A model generated the notes under the pieces. That model had not been told where the DNA came from, did not search any database, and saw nothing but the letters and a program-made list of their open reading frames with translations. A program made the position numbers and the translations under genes. Below are positions 1-24,882 of a stretch of 25,169 nt of DNA, in pieces (the stretch's first letter is position 1; each line of letters begins with the position of its first letter). The stretch is taken from positions 1 through 25,169 of IMG/VR virus record IMGVR_UViG_3300024344_002431. One strand, given 5' to 3'. The DNA is from a virus.

Positions 1-344
1 TGGCCGTTCTGAGTCACCTGGAACAGAACCTCCCCGTAGGACTTCCCCTCGGGGTGGGTCATTACCCGCTGGAACAGGTCCCGCTCTAGCTCGACCAGGA
101 GCGTGAACTCCTTGTGCCGGACGAAGGCCAGCGCAGTCGAGACCAGCGAGACCTCCGGGTCAGACTTGTCCAGCCCGTACCGCTCGGCGTAGTATTCGGC
201 GAGCTGCTGAGTCGTCTTGTGGACGACCGCCAGACCGTCGACGCTCCCGAAGCGCCGTTCAGCCATCTCCTGGACGGTCGGCAGCTTCTCCAGCGGACTA
301 CCCTTCTCAGGAGAAGGCTCAGGGACTTGTTCCGGCTGCGCCAC
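1..344 (-). CDS. Unknown protein, 3' end outside window (partial)
   Basis: This frame is open from a GTG at 344-342 to the left edge, giving at least 114 residues. It begins MAQPEQVPEPSPEKG and continues as a charged, helix-rich protein. I chose the GTG because a strong purine-rich ribosome-binding site (GAGGAGGGGG on the minus strand, about 350-359) lies just upstream. The start overlaps the 3' end of the ParB-like gene by 26 bases, in keeping with the overlapping style of this cluster. The first 20 residues are rich in Pro and Glu and probably disordered. After that the sequence looks folded, with no Cys, no signal peptide and no membrane span. I do not recognise the family. Its neighbours are a ParB-like and a RuvC-like protein, so a DNA-related role is possible, but that is only inferred from position. 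Confidence 0.7.
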   Translation of the reverse strand, partial: MAQPEQVPEPSPEKGSPLEKLPTVQEMAERRFGSVDGLAVVHKTTQQLAEYYAERYGLDKSDPEVSLVSTALAFVRHKEFTLLVELERDLFQRVMTHPEGKSYGEVLFQVTQNG

Positions 345-783
345 TTTGCCCCCTCCTCTGCCGCTCGTAGGCCGCTCGCTGTTCGCCCTGAAGTTTGGAC
401 CCCGTGTAGAAGTCCGGCACGATCAGGCAGTCTGCCGCGTCGTACCCGAGGTTCTTCAGCGCCAGGATTCGGTTCGTTCCGCCCCAGACCACGTTCAGCA
501 CGTCCTGCTCAGGAATGTTCGGAGGAGGGTTCTTGTCCGACGGCCTGAACGTCCCCTCTCTCAGGTAGCGCAGGAAGTCCTCTCGCGGCCCCCTGACGAC
601 GATGATGGGGTTCTCCATCCCTCCGTCCTCGAGGGACTCCTGGACCTTCTCAGCGAACGCTGGGACGGCCCTGACCGGAGAGTACAGATCGTCGAAGCTC
701 ATCGTCCTGACCTCGAACGAGTCGATGACCACGTTCTTGAAGCGTAGGCGCGAGGCCCCCGACTTGATTCGCATAGCGTTCAC
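319..783 (-). CDS. ParB/sulfiredoxin-fold-like protein
   Basis: A 154-residue protein. Residues 55-125 resemble the ParB-type nuclease/CTPase core. A short strand reading NPIIVV (58-63) is followed by a loop, then VVWGGTNRILALKNLGY (98-114), which aligns by eye with the ParB box (GxHRxxAAxxLG), and a closing strand CLIV (119-122). The canonical His of the box is replaced (GGTNR, 101-105), so the family is likely but the activity uncertain. There is no helix-turn-helix domain like that of full-length ParB; such short stand-alone ParB-like proteins are common in phages. The C-terminal 25 residues are Arg/Gln/Gly-rich and probably flexible. The start is a GTG at 783 sharing GTGA with the stop of the RuvC-like gene, which suggests translational coupling. 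An in-frame ATG at 774 is an alternative. The 3' end overlaps the next gene. Confidence 0.7.
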   Translation of the reverse strand: MNAMRIKSGASRLRFKNVVIDSFEVRTMSFDDLYSPVRAVPAFAEKVQESLEDGGMENPIIVVRGPREDFLRYLREGTFRPSDKNPPPNIPEQDVLNVVWGGTNRILALKNLGYDAADCLIVPDFYTGSKLQGEQRAAYERQRRGQSGAAGTSP

Positions 784-1292
784 TCTGGCACCACCGACCC
801 GAACAGGGCGATCACAGCCAGTGTGGCATCGTTCTCGTGAGAGGTCTTCCCTGACGTCCCCTTGCCCACGACCCGCTCGACGGCTCGGCGGACGTCCTTC
901 TTAGAGGCCATCCCCTTGCGGTTGAAGGGGATCTCTAGCAGCTTCGCCGTGGCCCGCTTCAGCCCGATGGGGGAGGTGTTCCGCATCGGAATCCCCCGGT
1001 CGCAGGCCCAGGCGGCGATGATTGACGAGACCGACCAGAGGAAGGCGGTCGTCTGAATTTGGCCCATGATGAAGGGCGGAGTCTCGGTTCCGATTGCCTC
1101 GATCGGCCCGTACTCCTCAGACAGACGGGATAGCTTAGGCCACAGGAATTTCGCAAAGAGGAGCGGCGCGGTGGCCTTCCCTACGGAGACGGAATCGGAG
1201 TGCAGTATCTCGAACTCCTTTCCGTCGTCGGAGACCTTGACCACGGAGAGGCCGAGGTTGCGGTAGCCTGGGTCGATACCTAGAACAATCAT
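780..1292 (-). CDS. RuvC-like Holliday junction resolvase
   Basis: A 170-residue protein, close to the roughly 173 residues of E. coli RuvC. It starts MIVLGIDPGYRNLG, the RuvC-type RNase H-fold opening with the first metal-binding Asp at D7. A second acidic residue is E70 in GTETPP. The C-terminal motif SHENDATLAV (151-160) supplies H152 and D155, matching the HxxDA signature of RuvC enzymes. All expected catalytic positions are therefore present and the enzyme should be active. The family cuts four-way DNA junctions as a dimer. In a phage this resolves recombination or replication branches before packaging. The ATG at 1292 overlaps the upstream stop (ATGA), and a good ribosome-binding site GGAGGA lies a few bases upstream. 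The 3' end shares GTGA with the ParB-like gene. Confidence in the family is high; the biological role is inferred. Confidence 0.9.
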   Translation of the reverse strand: MIVLGIDPGYRNLGLSVVKVSDDGKEFEILHSDSVSVGKATAPLLFAKFLWPKLSRLSEEYGPIEAIGTETPPFIMGQIQTTAFLWSVSSIIAAWACDRGIPMRNTSPIGLKRATAKLLEIPFNRKGMASKKDVRRAVERVVGKGTSGKTSHENDATLAVIALFGSVVPE

Positions 1293-1732
1293 GTCGGAAT
1301 CCTCCCGGTCTGGTTCATCCTGGTCATTTCTTTGAGGATGCGGTCGCGCTTCGTTTTGACCTCGGGCGTGGTTCGGGTCCCTTGCTCTCCGATGGTTCCG
1401 ATGAACTGGAGCGCGAGTTCGGCCTGGGCACGCTTGACGCGGAGGAACGGGAGCAGCGCAATCAGGATGGGTCCGGCGGACTTGCCTGAGATTTCCCAGC
1501 GCCAGGACGGTTGGCGCGTCTCCAGCTTGCCCCTGTTGCTCAGGCTGACCCCGCCTCCGAAGCGGGTCAGGAGCCAGTCCACGAGGGGCTGGCTGGCGTT
1601 GCTCACGCCCAGCTTTGTTGTGTAGGTGTGCTTACCGCATCGCTTGTCGAGCTGCTTGCGGGCAGAGATGCACCCGTCGGCGTCGACCAGCCCGGCCAGA
1701 TACGGGATGTCCGTTTTAGGGCTTGTTCGCAC
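1289..1732 (-). CDS. LAGLIDADG-family endonuclease-like protein
   Basis: A 147-residue protein with one clear LAGLIDADG-type motif, YLAGLVDADGCIS (11-23), whose last acidic residue D19 would be the metal-binding catalytic Asp. The later stretch ISGKSAGPILIALLPFL followed by RVKRAQAELALQF (81-110) matches the helix that closes this fold in many single-motif enzymes. One motif implies a homodimer cutting a near-palindromic site. Family members are usually homing endonucleases, but some are maturases or domesticated DNA-binding proteins. The start is a GTG at 1732; it overlaps the lipoprotein gene by 17 bases and ends in an ATGA overlap with the RuvC-like gene. Such tight coupling on both sides is unusual for a freely mobile homing gene and suggests it is an established operon member. 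The ribosome-binding site is weak, so translation probably depends on coupling. Confidence 0.8.
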   Translation of the reverse strand: MRTSPKTDIPYLAGLVDADGCISARKQLDKRCGKHTYTTKLGVSNASQPLVDWLLTRFGGGVSLSNRGKLETRQPSWRWEISGKSAGPILIALLPFLRVKRAQAELALQFIGTIGEQGTRTTPEVKTKRDRILKEMTRMNQTGRIPT

Positions 1733-2144
1733 GGAAACCTACAGGGCGTTGATCGTCGAGGTCGTCTCTAGGAAGAGGCGGCTCGTCGTAGGGAAGGGTG
1801 TCTTGATCCACCTGAGCAGTGAACCAGCCTTTCAGCTTCTTGAACAGGGCCGAGGGGGAGGGGGACCACCAGAGCAAAAGTGTGAGGATTGCGAGGCCCC
1901 AGGCTAGGTGCCCGAGCTTGTCCAGGAGGTCTCCGAAGATCCCCCAGGCGGTGGTTGGAGCCTCGTCAGGCTTTTCGATCGTGGTCTCGGCGATCATCAG
2001 TCCGCTGGCAGCGCCCGCAGCGGCCCCGCCTGGGCCGAGGTAGGAACCAACCGCCGCGCCCAGGGAGGCAGAGCCAACCCGGGCGACGGCGGCGCAGGAG
2101 GTCACGCACAGGAGGATGAGAAGGGGGAGGACTGTACGCTTCAT
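1716..2144 (-). CDS. Lipoprotein with second membrane span; candidate unimolecular spanin
   Basis: A 142-residue protein. The N-terminus MKRTVLPLLILLCVTSC is a typical lipoprotein signal: two basic residues, a hydrophobic core and the lipobox VTSC, with lipidation expected at C17. Residues 24-52 are Gly/Ala-rich with a glycine-zipper spacing. A second hydrophobic segment at 78-93 (HLAWGLAILTLLLWW) is followed by a basic stretch FKKLKGW and a Pro/Asp-rich tail. A lipidated N-terminus plus a C-proximal membrane span is the layout of unimolecular spanins such as phage T1 gp11, which link outer and inner membranes during lysis. The segment between them is only about 60 residues, which is short for crossing the periplasm, so another membrane-stress or lysis role is possible. 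The start overlaps the upstream small membrane-protein gene as ATGA. No endolysin is seen nearby. Confidence 0.7.
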   Translation of the reverse strand: MKRTVLPLLILLCVTSCAAVARVGSASLGAAVGSYLGPGGAAAGAASGLMIAETTIEKPDEAPTTAWGIFGDLLDKLGHLAWGLAILTLLLWWSPSPSALFKKLKGWFTAQVDQDTLPYDEPPLPRDDLDDQRPVGFRANKP

Positions 2145-2338
2145 TTCTGCTTGGTCTCCAGTACGGTCATGCGATGCTCGATCTCTAGGAAGTACACAGC
2201 CAGATCGCGGTCTCTGGCTTTGTTGGCGTCGTCCAAGTCGGTCACCCTTGTCCAGAGCATCGTCAGCAAGAACATTGTAAGGGCAAGTAGCGCCCGGCTC
2301 ACAAGGGTAAAGAGGCGATCTTCCGTAATTTTGGGCAC
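2141..2338 (-). CDS. Small single-span membrane protein; candidate holin or inner-membrane spanin subunit
   Basis: A 65-residue protein with a short N-terminal charged segment, one hydrophobic helix (about 10-30) and a charged helical tail (31-65) that looks able to form a coiled coil. It starts with a GTG at 2338 sharing one base with the upstream TAG stop, and ends in an ATGA overlap with the lipoprotein gene. A membrane-anchored helix next to a lipoprotein gene recalls inner-membrane/outer-membrane spanin pairs, but the lipoprotein carries its own second span. A single-span holin is equally plausible from size. The sequence alone does not settle this. The position directly after the last virion gene is where short-tailed phages often keep lysis genes. 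Confidence 0.7.
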   Translation of the reverse strand: MPKITEDRLFTLVSRALLALTMFLLTMLWTRVTDLDDANKARDRDLAVYFLEIEHRMTVLETKQK

Positions 2339-21061: not shown

Positions 21062-23050
21062 TCAGCCTATCGGGAGCTGTTGAGGGGTTGCGGTCGGGAC
21101 CCCGCCGGTCGCCAGGGCCGCCTGGAGCTGGTTGTCCAGTTCGCCCGGGCCAGCGCCGACGCCGGGGACAACCCCTCCGCCGCCCGGGTTCAGGATCTCC
21201 TGTTTGCGGGCCGCGAACGCCTTGTGCATGTCGATCGTCTGCTGGAGGGCCATGATTGACTCCTCGGGATCGCCGCGCCCGACCCACTTCTCTTTGACCT
21301 TCGTGTAGTACGCGATGTACATGTCGTGCTGGTCGTCCTCGAAGACCTCGATCGGGTCCTGGGTCTGGAGGTACTCGATCAGACGCTCCTCGGGGCCAAA
21401 CTCGATCGTCGGGGCATCGAGGTAGATGTCGGCGTCCTCAATTCCCATCGCGTTGCCCAGAGTGCGGAGGGCCTCGCGGGTCATCCGTGGCATCCCCTGC
21501 GGGAACGCCTGCTGGGTGTTCGTCGTGACCGTGAGCCACTGCATGATCGACTGGAGATCGCCCTGGTTCGAGAGGTGCCCCAGCTCAACCGGGTCCACGT
21601 CGAACGAGAAGGCGGCGGTCGCCGGGTCCGGGACGTGCAACTCCTGGATCACACCGTTGTCGAGGGGCACTTCGAGCGACTTCCCGAAGATTTCGCGCTG
21701 GTAGGCGAATCCGGCCTGAGCAAGGCGGGTCCACATCCCAGCCATGACTTCGAGCCGGTCCTGGTTCCTGCGGCTGGCAGCCGAAGTGATTGAGACCGCC
21801 TCAGCCGCAGACTTTCGCGGGTTGGAGGCGATGCCCCGCTCGGCTGAGGTCACCCCGGTGATGTCGTCCAGGAGACCCATGTAGGTGTTCAGCGCAGCGA
21901 GGTACTCGCCGAGGACCGAGTTCTGCTCGACCGGGCGCATCGTCGCGTTCACGCCTTCAGGGGTGTCGTCGGTGTCGACCGCGATGTAGGTCGTCGAGCC
22001 CGGGATCGCGTTGATCAGAGCTTGGATGTCGTCCTCGCTGAACGCCCCCTTGGCGTACAGCATCGTCGTGTTCGTCGTGCGGATCTCTCGGTCGATCTGA
22101 ACGAGCGTCTGGACGATCATCCGCATCAGCGGAATCCACGAGAGTACCTCGGCGGCGGGAACGTCCTCTCCAGGTGCCGGGTCCATGAAGTTGGCCAGCG
22201 CGAGCGGGCAGGCGGGCAGGTCGACCGAAGTGACGTACTCGCCCAGCGCCTCTCTGACTTTGACCCGTCGGAGGTCGAGGTCGCCGGTGTCGCCCGAATC
22301 CTGCGGGCCCTCGGCGACGAACACCGACATCGGGCAGCGGTCGGCCTTGACCGGCTTGCTCAGGCCGTGACGGAAGCCCTCGTGGTAAACCTCAGTGACC
22401 CGGACAATTTGCCACGGCTTGAGCGCGGGCTCGCCCTCTCGCTTCGGCTGCCACTCCTTGGGCAGATCGGAGACCTGCATGTCGTAGGCGTGCCAAGTGA
22501 ATCGGCGGTGGAACGGCTCGTACCCGCAGTCGCGTGCCTCAATCGCCTCGTATTTCAGGCGACGGTAGGGGACGGGCTCCTCTTTGGCCGTTTTGTACGT
22601 CAGCTTGGCCGCGAAGTAGGGCGAGAGCAGGCCGTTGAACGCGGCCTTCCGCATCGCCTCGCGCAGGTGCCCGTGATCCGTCGCAATTCGGGTAATCCGG
22701 TTCTGATCCTCTGCGAGGTGGGCAGAGCCAGAGACCCGAGCCTTGACCCGGAACGAGGGGACCCCCGGGGTCAGTGAGACTAGGACCTGGCGCGATCGGC
22801 TCAGGAAGAGGTTGGCGGTCGTCTGGGGCGGACGCCAGGAGCCGATCTGGGTGGCCTCTAGGACCTGGGAGGCGGGGAGCCCCTGTTCAGGGAGAAGGCG
22901 GGCCCTGCCCCCCATCGGGTCGCGGCCAGTGTAGATGTCGGCGATCAGCTTTTCGCTTCCGGCCAGCGGCTCCTGGACCGCGCTCATCGCTCGGGTGACC
23001 AGCTCGGCCAACTCCTTGGCCGCGTCCTCCGCCATCGTTATGTGCTTCAT
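21062..23050 (-). CDS. Portal protein
   Basis: A 662-residue protein directly downstream of the terminase, with its ATG overlapping the terminase stop (ATGA). Segments typical of podoviral portals are visible: NLFLSRSRQVLVSLTPG (80-96), AMRKAAFNGLLSPYFAAKL (132-150), an acidic beta region with receptor-like loops (215-300), and the crown/stem helices with EYLAALNTYMGLLDDITGV (382-400), an RGIASNPRKSAAEAV segment and a long helix after it. The C-terminal 40 residues are Gly/Pro/Gln-rich and flexible. The portal forms the dodecameric ring through which the terminase drives DNA. An ATG five codons downstream (MAEDAAKE) is an alternative start. The ribosome-binding site is weak, so translation probably depends on coupling to the terminase. 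Confidence 0.88.
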   Translation of the reverse strand: MKHITMAEDAAKELAELVTRAMSAVQEPLAGSEKLIADIYTGRDPMGGRARLLPEQGLPASQVLEATQIGSWRPPQTTANLFLSRSRQVLVSLTPGVPSFRVKARVSGSAHLAEDQNRITRIATDHGHLREAMRKAAFNGLLSPYFAAKLTYKTAKEEPVPYRRLKYEAIEARDCGYEPFHRRFTWHAYDMQVSDLPKEWQPKREGEPALKPWQIVRVTEVYHEGFRHGLSKPVKADRCPMSVFVAEGPQDSGDTGDLDLRRVKVREALGEYVTSVDLPACPLALANFMDPAPGEDVPAAEVLSWIPLMRMIVQTLVQIDREIRTTNTTMLYAKGAFSEDDIQALINAIPGSTTYIAVDTDDTPEGVNATMRPVEQNSVLGEYLAALNTYMGLLDDITGVTSAERGIASNPRKSAAEAVSITSAASRRNQDRLEVMAGMWTRLAQAGFAYQREIFGKSLEVPLDNGVIQELHVPDPATAAFSFDVDPVELGHLSNQGDLQSIMQWLTVTTNTQQAFPQGMPRMTREALRTLGNAMGIEDADIYLDAPTIEFGPEERLIEYLQTQDPIEVFEDDQHDMYIAYYTKVKEKWVGRGDPEESIMALQQTIDMHKAFAARKQEILNPGGGGVVPGVGAGPGELDNQLQAALATGGVPTATPQQLPIG

Positions 23051-24645
23051 CCGGGCCAGTTGTCTTGGTTGGAGGTGGTCTTCCAGATCGCGGTCGGGTA
23101 GGGTTCGAGATCGGGTTGGGGCATTCCGGGGAGGGGTCCGCGCCGCTCGGTCATCGTACTCAGCAGCGCCAGAGCAGAGATGAGGTCGTCGGAGTCTCCC
23201 AGTGGATACTCTGTGAGACGCCGAGTCAAGAGGTCTTTTCCGGGAAAGTTTCTGGGCAGAACGAGGTAGCCCTTGCGCATCGCAGTCTGTAGGCCCATCA
23301 GCCTGAACAGCAGTCCACGGGTCCCAATCTTCTGGCCCCGAATCTTGACCCCCTTGATCCTGCCTCGCTCTTCGAGCCAGGGGGCAAAGAGGGCCTGAGC
23401 CGCTACCTGCTCAATCCAGATGGATTTGATAAGGGGATGCTGTGGGATGCAAATGTCCTCGATCCAGCAGGCAGCGGCGTCAGCCCCTCCAGCGATTTCG
23501 TGCGCCCGGACGGGCACAAAGATGTTCCGGTCGGGCTCGAAGCCCTTCAGGCCCAGCGCCGAGGCGGTCAGCAGCCGGACCACCAGCAGCCCGTTCAGGT
23601 CGCCCTTCGCCCCGTCGACCCGGGCTACCGGATCAAAGAGCAGCAGTTCAGGCCCGTCCGGTAAGTCGGACGGTGTCTCATATTGAGAATCGGTGGCGGC
23701 CTCGACCAGCTGGGGCTCGAACAGCGCCTCTTCGGAGGGGATCGGCTGGCAGAGGTACTGGGCGGCGAAGAACGTCTTGGGCAGGTTCTCCCGCTTGGCC
23801 TCGATCTCAGCCTCGTTCAGGAAGCTGGGGCAGAGCGGGGCCCTTTCGTCTGTTAGGGCTTTGTTAGGGCCATCCCAGACGCCGAATCGGAACTGCCGCC
23901 AGTCGGGACGGCGGCCCAGGTGGGCTGTGATGTCGTCGAAGGCCCAGGGGGTTCCGACATGTCGGATGGGGGAGTCGGCCGAGTACATGAGCGGTTCGAG
24001 CGCGTCGATGAACTCGATGACCTTCTGGCGTCGGGCGAAGGTCCGGCTGTTCTGCTCGTTGGCCGGGTCGTCGATGACCGCTCGGGTCGGGTGGTTGCCC
24101 GCGAGGTTCGAGTCGACCGACGCGGCGAACACCGAGGGCTCCCGGCCCTTCCCGCTCCGGCCAACGATGTTGAAGTGGTCGGTCGGCCCGGCCAATGTCC
24201 GACTTGTGGGACGTGCCCCTGGGCTGATCCAGGGGAAGATGTCGGACACCGGGAAGAAGAGCCCGGGCAGCAGCTCGACGTCCCCGCTCAGCCGGTCCCT
24301 GATCTCCCCGGTCAGCTTCTTGCTCAGGTCGAGCGTCGCGCTGGCCAGCAGGTTCCTACTTGTGGGATCGCGCAAAAGAGTGTGCGCCGTGTCGATGACT
24401 GTGATCAGCGTCGACTTCGCGTGGCCACGGGGAATGATCGTAGAGGTCCTGGGACCGCTGTGCACATGGCTCATCATCCGATAGTGGAACTCGCCGAACT
24501 GCTTGCGGCGGGGCCCTCCCTCCTCGGTCGGGGGGTCCCCCTTGTAGCCCAGCGCAACCCCGAACGCGATCGGGTCCTGCCAGAGCCTGATCAGCGCGTC
24601 CCGGACCTGCTCGGGCAGATAGTCGCCGTACTGCGTGGACTGCAT
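23047..24645 (-). CDS. terL: Terminase large subunit
   Basis: Starting at MQSTQYGDYL (ATG 24645) the protein has 532 residues. The ATPase half shows Walker A PRGHAKST (72-79), a Walker B-type AVIDDP (189-194) and the coupling motif HVGTPW (229-234). The nuclease half has an RNase H-like set of acids: D338 in LLLFDP, E412 in SIWIEQ and D484/D486/D487 in GDSDDLISALALL. All key residues are present, so motor and headful or site-specific cutting should work. The frame stays open upstream to an ATG at 24870, but those 75 residues are Arg/Pro-rich junk over a region with promoter-like dyads, so I prefer 24645 despite a weak ribosome-binding site. The stop overlaps the portal start. No small subunit gene is found in the window. 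Confidence 0.92.
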   Translation of the reverse strand: MQSTQYGDYLPEQVRDALIRLWQDPIAFGVALGYKGDPPTEEGGPRRKQFGEFHYRMMSHVHSGPRTSTIIPRGHAKSTLITVIDTAHTLLRDPTSRNLLASATLDLSKKLTGEIRDRLSGDVELLPGLFFPVSDIFPWISPGARPTSRTLAGPTDHFNIVGRSGKGREPSVFAASVDSNLAGNHPTRAVIDDPANEQNSRTFARRQKVIEFIDALEPLMYSADSPIRHVGTPWAFDDITAHLGRRPDWRQFRFGVWDGPNKALTDERAPLCPSFLNEAEIEAKRENLPKTFFAAQYLCQPIPSEEALFEPQLVEAATDSQYETPSDLPDGPELLLFDPVARVDGAKGDLNGLLVVRLLTASALGLKGFEPDRNIFVPVRAHEIAGGADAAACWIEDICIPQHPLIKSIWIEQVAAQALFAPWLEERGRIKGVKIRGQKIGTRGLLFRLMGLQTAMRKGYLVLPRNFPGKDLLTRRLTEYPLGDSDDLISALALLSTMTERRGPLPGMPQPDLEPYPTAIWKTTSNQDNWPG

Positions 24646-24675
24646 GCGGAGGGAGGCTACCGCCCCGGGCAGAGC

Positions 24676-24716
24676 ATGTAAAGGCCCGTCGTTTGTATGC
24701 CGGTGCCGCTTTACAT
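24676..24716. promoter_or_regulatory. 8-bp inverted repeat flanking the -10 region
   Basis: ATGTAAAG (24676-24683) and CTTTACAT (24709-24716) form a perfect 8-bp inverted repeat with a 25-base spacer that contains the TACAAA box. It abuts and slightly overlaps the 17-bp palindrome. It could be a pair of half-sites for a looping or dimeric regulator, or a weak hairpin. Confidence 0.4.
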
Positions 24717-24720
24717 TCAA
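24692..24720 (-). promoter_or_regulatory. Promoter-like element for the terminase/structural operon
   Basis: On the minus strand TTGAAT (24720-24715) and TACAAA (24697-24692) are separated by exactly 17 bases and match the sigma-70 -35 and -10 boxes at four of six positions each. Transcription would start near 24685, about 40 bases before the terminase ATG at 24645. The stretch is an AT-rich island in GC-rich DNA. Confidence 0.45.
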
Positions 24721-24731
24721 CGGGATTGAAT
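24715..24731. promoter_or_regulatory. 17-bp palindrome, operator-like
   Basis: ATTCAA-CGGGA-TTGAAT is a perfect 6-bp dyad with a 5-base centre. It covers the -35 box of the promoter-like element. Size and symmetry suit a dimeric helix-turn-helix repressor or activator, but no such regulator is encoded in the window. Confidence 0.45.
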
Positions 24732-24851
24732 TTCGCTCGGGGACAGGCCTGGCGGTAGCAGGTACAGTGCGTGTGCAGAAGTTGGCGATTTGTGCTAACT
24801 GCTGCGAACGGGCGCTGCGCCCGAGGGGGACCCGAATAGGGCGGTGCTTGA

Positions 24852-24882
24852 GGGGAGGGGGTAGGGCCACGGGGGGAAGGGG
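24852..24882 (+). other. G-quadruplex-capable G-run cluster
   Basis: Five runs of G (lengths 4, 5, 3, 6, 4) separated by A, TA, CCAC and AA satisfy the usual G3+N1-7 quadruplex pattern on the plus strand. It lies about 165 bases upstream of the putative transcription start of the terminase operon. Confidence 0.5.

Follow-up and report, generated by a model that had tools for sequence, protein, structure and literature searches.

Is a nuclease gene that overlaps a junction resolvase gene part of a joint machinery, or a homing element that has settled beside it? This question is raised by one end of the IMG/VR virus record IMGVR_UViG_3300024344_002431, which was analysed as a complete record of 25,169 bases and is referred to below as the window. 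On its minus strand lies a cassette of four genes, coding for a LAGLIDADG endonuclease (LAG), a RuvC-like resolvase, a protein with a ParB-like fold and an all-helical protein. With moderate confidence we take LAG to be a settled, still competent free-standing homing endonuclease, held in place by its coupling to ruvC. Fifteen related lineages keep such a nuclease, apparently intact in sequence, at one locus by the resolvase gene and ten related lineages are without it; with this natural set one can test how a selfish nuclease comes to be retained. None of the titles and abstracts listed in literature searches described a LAGLIDADG-RuvC phage cassette.

An apparently intact nuclease gene at one position

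The window LAG matched phrog_5046 (E 1.5e-24), an assignment that holds for all 15 cassette LAGs. Its profile matched I-CvuI (5a74, E 6.9e-14), I-MsoI (1m5x, E 2.1e-12) and I-CreI (1bp7, E 1.2e-10), and the sequence also matched PADLOC 'HEase' (E 2.1e-10). Against Pfam it reached 15.7 bits with both LAGLIDADG_3 and LAGLIDADG_1, under the cut-offs of 22.5 and 23.1, respectively; a Pfam cut-off is not a defining property of LAGLIDADG endonucleases. The likeness to I-MsoI, I-CvuI and I-CreI extends over most of the chain, with the catalytic Asp and Lys at aligned positions. These three enzymes are known from organellar introns; LAG, by contrast, is encoded in a phage late operon by a gene for which no intron is recognised.

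The catalytic residues D19 and K100 were invariant in 15/15 cassette sequences, K100 being presumably the equivalent of I-CreI K98 (from the profile alignment and I-CreI numbering). In 45 other sequences of the family the D19 position was acidic in 44 and the K100 position was Lys in all. N45, considered as the position of I-CreI Q47, was dropped, the profile alignment being offset there. As far as the sequences tell, the catalytic Asp and Lys have not decayed in the cassette set. LAG is under purifying selection: the ratio of nonsynonymous to synonymous substitution rates (dN/dS) was 0.08-0.26 across the eight pairs computed, and 0.08-0.13 in the four close ones. A homing nuclease that has become fixed would be expected to decay. 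A preprint (PMC13405050) reports that about 10% of the homing endonucleases tested were functional and that most sampled LAGLIDADG nucleases were degraded.

With RuvC, LAG and the helical protein as starting points, scans led to 25 non-duplicate RuvC lineages, the window included. Copies, re-fetches and fragments were dropped (L001-L004, L006, L010, L011, L014, L015, L019, L025, L028, L029, L075 and L079), as were contigs that the scans recovered repeatedly. Three further contigs from the helical-protein scan (L098, L104 and L109) do not reach the LAG slot and stand outside the 25. LAG was present in 15 lineages (window, L005, L007, L008, L009, L012, L013, L017, L018, L020, L021, L022, L023, L024 and L026; LAG+) and absent from ten (L016, L027, L074, L076, L077, L078, L080, L081, L082 and L083; LAG-). 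It abuts the 5' end of ruvC in all 15 LAG+ loci, with a 4-base overlap in 13 and a 1-base overlap in two, and the order LAG-RuvC-ParB-helical is found in each of them, in L005 with one insert. The LAG-ruvC order is well beyond chance, despite a median LAG identity of 32%. A LAG-profile search of 28 contigs (near-duplicates in, window out) found a single copy on 16 of them; the other 12, of which seven are 36-46 kb long, had none. The window LAG alone as a query found no relative; an alignment of two sequences was needed.

These counts bear on a sequence-only reading of the same DNA, in which gene order and co-occurrence were to be checked in relatives. Order was conserved, LAG lying directly 5' of ruvC in 15/25 lineages; co-occurrence stood insofar as LAG, where present, always takes this place, and did not in so far as ten lineages lack it. 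The arrangement which that reading had named as pointing to an ordinary homing element, with LAG absent and a lipoprotein gene joined directly to ruvC, occurs in five LAG- lineages (L016, L074, L076, L078 and L080; lipoboxes identified by eye), L016 being nested among the LAG+ lineages.

A Shine-Dalgarno-like AGG for ruvC lies within the last codons of LAG. An AGG at -14 to -4 before the ruvC start was present in 15/15 LAG+ and 2/10 LAG- loci, counts that are uncorrected for shared descent. In 13/15 LAGs a C-terminal Arg/Lys-Gly motif places the AGG 4-14 bases before the ruvC start; such codon pairs contained AGG in 13/13 cases at the LAG C-terminus and in 74/134 elsewhere in the same loci. 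The codon usage suggests that the end of LAG doubles as the ruvC ribosome-binding site, and because LAG carries this signal, translational coupling of LAG and RuvC is likely. The overlap itself is ordinary in an operon in which 9/16 neighbour pairs overlap.

Descent and exchange of LAG

A backbone tree of 21 rows was made from RuvC, the helical protein and 'exo', a protein of about 300 aa that serves as an outside marker; the long rows L080 and L081 were left out, and L082 and L083 were not entered. A clade of the 15 LAG+ lineages alone was rejected (approximately unbiased (AU) test, p 0.0035). A clade of the LAG+ lineages plus L016, named for testing after an earlier tree had placed L016 inside, was not rejected (AU p 0.54). 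L016 therefore most likely lost LAG, judging from these trees, in a segment whose other upstream genes also differ. The 21-row tree requires three changes of LAG state, and the tree with L080 and L081 in requires five; half of the inner branches of the 21-row tree are weakly supported.

In a tree of the cassette LAGs with 45 IMG/VR sequences from 38 distant loci and four from cultured phages, the cassette LAGs group with only two outsiders, both copies from L053 (support 94/70), and a single cassette-LAG clade was not rejected (AU p 0.37). One acquisition of LAG followed by a move to L053 would fit this tree. LAG distances correlated with those of RuvC, ParB, helical protein and exo (Mantel r 0.76-0.87; 0/5000 permutations as high) and less so with the upstream protein corresponding to the 1882-aa protein of the window (r 0.68 over 66 pairs). 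Two extremes were rejected: that LAG strictly follows the backbone tree (AU p 0.0016, 3/12 splits shared), despite the high Mantel correlation, and that it is a random recent insertion, in view of its fixed place, one copy and low dN/dS.

One LAG allele has been replaced between similar flanks. L021 and L024 share 95% identity in the 1882-aa-type protein, 89% in RuvC and 94% in the helical protein, with 56% in LAG. For L018 and L024 the values are 96% (208 aa available), 93%, 92% and 58%, respectively, and DNA identity rises from 60% in the last 100 bases of LAG to 77% in the first and 92% in the second 100 bases of ruvC; the DNA on the left of LAG differs as well. A similar trough is seen in the ParB-fold gene (window 319-783) between L009 and L021 (RuvC 88%, ParB 56%, helical 89%), as if its alleles had been exchanged or evolved fast. 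From these troughs we conclude that alleles of LAG and of ParB are swapped while the surrounding frame stays conserved. Between L020 and L022, LAG (94%), RuvC (92%) and exo (99%) are similar and the 1882-aa-type protein is not (46%, 289 aa available), an apparent mosaic border between virion gene and cassette.

It is proposed that, in this uncultivated phage group, a LAG of the I-CreI/I-MsoI kind settled in the late operon, most simply once, with the virion/lipoprotein genes on one side and ruvC on the other, and that it has since been retained at this place. Two LAG chains would pair and cut one target site in a coinfecting relative that lacks LAG or carries another allele. The break would be repaired from the LAG+ genome, so that LAG and flanking DNA would be copied (intronless homing) and markers of the rival excluded, which would be the advantage in coinfection. 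The RuvC-like resolvase of the phage could resolve the homing junctions and other branches before packaging. With the AGG of ruvC inside its last codons, loss of LAG would be costly. The ParB-fold and helical proteins would be neighbours with separate jobs.

Seg proteins are GIY-YIG nucleases. LAG resembles SegF and SegG of T-even phages, for which intronless homing and marker exclusion are described (PMC2988022), in being a stand-alone nuclease gene with exchange of alleles and flanking DNA. It differs from the Seg proteins and from the Mob proteins (HNH) in being, by its sequence, a single-motif LAGLIDADG gene in single copy, at one place in a phage group and overlapping ruvC. The HNH nuclease beside the terminase in HK97-type phages, as described in PMC10448857, is likewise similar to a homing endonuclease gene (HEG) and always found at the same site of a late module, although LAG belongs to another nuclease family and adjoins ruvC, not the terminase. 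HEG islands (PMC10448857) also have a nuclease gene at an exchange boundary between related phages; here there is one nuclease, not two flanking ones, and the boundary is seen in few genome pairs. For a benefit of a homing nuclease in coinfection the interference-competition endonuclease gp210 of phiPA3 is a model, although this is an intron-encoded HNH protein with a known target in phiKZ (PMC11620839). The junction resolvase of T4, gene 49, resolves homing junctions (PMC2988022).

Several points weigh against a homing nuclease that is still competent. The allele replacement is a single event and takes in the left flank. Among the relatives, none was found with an empty site between nearly identical flanks, the upstream genes of L016 differing too. 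The cassette LAGs formed one side of a branch in only 1% of bootstrap trees, because the two L053 copies fall inside; LAG moved out to L053, or arrived more than once. Descent looks mostly vertical, since LAG and RuvC distances correlated at Mantel r 0.80 and LAG was more alike than RuvC in only 2/105 pairs; frequent homing would blur such tracking. The AGG comparison may owe something to shared descent, for which it is uncorrected. Homing in T4 without gene 49 was reduced, not abolished (PMC2988022), so that homing could profit from a neighbouring resolvase without depending on one. Whether a nuclease gene actively homes can often not be told from bioinformatic data alone, as PMC10448857 points out.

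LAG relatives elsewhere in phages

In the 38 distant LAG loci, none of the cassette's RuvC, ParB or helical families was found in the stretch fetched. At least two LAG-matching open reading frames were present in 6/38 (L036, L041, L052, L053, L054 and L061), and at L036, L046, L052, L053 and L061 the LAG family was represented by several copies or by fused double ones. In eight regions of cultured phages the LAG relatives lie at varied places: with a DHH phosphoesterase gene, with ThyX (three phages), between scaffold and capsid genes, near terminase and methylase genes, beside a tmRNA gene and inside an annotated methyltransferase reading frame. Such multiple or fused copies and varied places are as expected of a mobile, actively spreading kind. 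The genes of phrog_5046 type overlap the ThyX gene in Vibrio phage 496E54-1 and in Streptomyces phages Braelyn and Emma1919, the latter two being one family. In phage CcrRogue the LAG relative has a 1-base overlap with both annotated neighbours, and one of the two L053 copies overlaps open frames on both sides. The sequence-only reading took such tight coupling on both sides to be rare among homing nucleases; for phrog_5046 this fails, and the CcrRogue copy shows that the window is not alone in it.

Under one alternative, which is possible though unlikely, LAG and RuvC are a domesticated pair: LAG nicks or cuts the phage's own or host DNA at chosen sites, and RuvC resolves or debranches the products before packaging. 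Single copy and single position, kept over deep divergence (RuvC identity to the window falls to 54% among relatives), would agree with this, as would purifying selection, the intact active site, the late operon and the translational coupling to ruvC; a precedent is the HK97 HNH nuclease, which serves the terminase (PMC10448857). However, LAG is dispensable, because it is missing in 10/25 lineages, once inside the LAG+ group, with none elsewhere on those contigs, and 0/38 distant LAG loci contain this RuvC family in the stretch fetched. We consider it doubtful that LAG is a site-specific partner of RuvC which breaks or nicks rival or own DNA, the co-translated resolvase processing the joints. 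If so, the two enzymes would form a module for exclusion or recombination that is retained through the embedded ribosome-binding site.

It is improbable that LAG no longer homes and is a jobless passenger, kept mainly since its 3' end is the ruvC ribosome-binding site. The distribution of the AGG would be explained, and LAG indeed differs more than its neighbours (median identity 32%, compared with 68% for RuvC, 48% for ParB and 61% for the helical protein). However, 15/15 sequences keep the catalytic Asp and Lys, which lie far from the 3' end, and dN/dS is low gene-wide, and a ribosome-binding site needs neither. That all four proteins act together as one anti-competitor or debranching machine, as the sequence-only reading had suggested from the cassette's order, is very improbable even with that order kept in 15 lineages, because RuvC and the helical protein stay while LAG and ParB come and go (absent in 10/25 and 6/25 RuvC lineages), and ParB or LAG identity is in some pairs far below both flanks, a phosphoesterase gene takes the LAG slot in L027 and in L005 and L016 the order is broken by a sulfotransferase-like gene. 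The anti-competitor idea may still apply in the form of intronless homing or exclusion.

The operon and the other cassette proteins

The cassette is the 3' end of an operon, of which the first visible genes are those for the terminase (23047-24870) and portal (21062-23050; the portal match is weak). The consecutive overlap of the four genes was confirmed, with 4 bases (ATGA) between LAG and RuvC, 4 (GTGA) between RuvC and ParB-like and 26 between ParB-like and helical; the lipoprotein gene and LAG share 17 bases. Overlap alone says little, because 13/16 neighbour pairs of the operon are within 5 bases and 9/16 overlap. As evidence of joint function it was rejected on these counts and because ruvC overlaps an upstream frame in LAG- lineages too, by 4 bases in 6/10 (the frame of L083 is short and perhaps no gene). 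From its size and position the 1882-aa protein is probably an internal virion protein.

Features of the cassette and its upstream neighbours in the window.
Feature	Position	Strand	Basis or remark
LAG, single-motif LAGLIDADG endonuclease, 147 aa, GTG start	1289..1732	-	phrog_5046, profile matches, invariant D19/K100
RuvC-like Holliday-junction resolvase, 170 aa	780..1292	-	phrog_159, solved RuvC profiles, invariant D7/E70/H152/D155
ParB-N/sulfiredoxin-fold protein, 154 aa, without helix-turn-helix (HTH) domain	319..783	-	AlphaFold2 and Foldseek
All-helical protein, incomplete in the window, ~145 aa in relatives	3..344	-	runs off contig
AGG (Shine-Dalgarno-like) before ruvC start, within last LAG codons	1301..1303	-	
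Lipoprotein gene 5' of LAG, 142 aa	1716..2144	-	lipobox read by eye
Conserved upstream protein of 65 aa with one membrane helix (by eye)	2141..2338	-	
1882-aa protein, left side of accessory segment	2338..7986	-	

The window RuvC matched phrog_159 (E 2.8e-9), and its profile matched solved RuvC structures over residues 1-117 (7w8d, E 3.5e-6; 4ep4, E 1.2e-5). Scores were 19.8 bits with Pfam RuvC (cut-off 22.2) and 23.5 with NCBIfam (cut-off 163). D7, E70, H152 and D155, which we take to be the catalytic residues by the D-E-H-D assignment of Thermus RuvC, were invariant in 17/17, in agreement with the junction resolvase with intact catalytic residues described before. Among 50,697 phage records RuvC gave one weak match, and the terminase gave weak matches in 10. 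When bacterial genomes were scanned with the RuvC alignment no relative came up, so there is no hint of the host.

The ParB label holds in part. By sequence the assignment is weak (phrog_4715, E 0.065; Pfam ParB_N in 3/16 relatives). Its AlphaFold2 model (predicted local distance difference test score (pLDDT) 85.7) gave Foldseek top rows of Noc, ParB, sulfiredoxin (Srx) and free serine kinase (probability 0.99-1.00, query TM-score 0.38-0.46), with 7nfu (E 8.6e-4) and 6sdk (E 1.2e-3) both at probability 1.00 and sulfiredoxin and free serine kinase equally good. The 154-aa model has a single helix (125-143) after the N domain and no HTH DNA-binding domain. The protein thus has a predicted N-terminal ParB fold and is not assigned as a ParB partition protein. 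ParB is absent in six of the 25 lineages (L027, L077, L080, L081, L082 and L083); in L104, outside the 25, the ruvC end is followed directly by the helical gene, a further case without ParB.

The helical protein accompanies RuvC in 23/25 lineages at E 1e-3, with weak matches just beyond ruvC in L082 and L083 (E 0.001 and 0.003). RuvC and the helical protein are the older core, persisting without LAG and ParB. The model is all-helical (pLDDT 74.1), with no Foldseek match at E <=0.001 in PDB or BFVD and no VIA-align Z >=8; adjoining RuvC, it is a conserved core protein without a family or fold match. That it is a terminase small subunit would be a guess from its position and the helical model, and is not settled. 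Nine regions were read by eye, without a family search; in the eight that extend past TerL, no obvious small terminase subunit was seen on its 5' side.

Beyond the cassette, most relatives viewed have oppositely directed genes, among them that of exo, which had no Pfam match; its nuclease nature is a guess. A scan from this exonuclease-like end gave, among the matches listed, at least seven strong ones, six being contigs already in the set; the new contig, L128, matched none of the four cassette profiles.

In L027 a gene for a calcineurin-like phosphoesterase occupies the LAG slot and overlaps ruvC by 4 bases; RuvC may have in this protein an alternative companion, or an older one. The more distant L081-L083 have the gene some 0.6-0.7 kb 5' of ruvC (L027:4748-5470; L081:4600-5322; L082:4504-5259; L083:4709-5425; by Pfam on L027 and L081, by eye on the others). 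The sulfotransferase-like gene of L005 and L016, between ruvC and the ParB-like gene, codes for 188-191 aa; its copy in L001 matched Pfam Sulfotransfer_3 below the cut-off. The terminase regions of G003, G013 and G025 each have one in-frame stop in the match.

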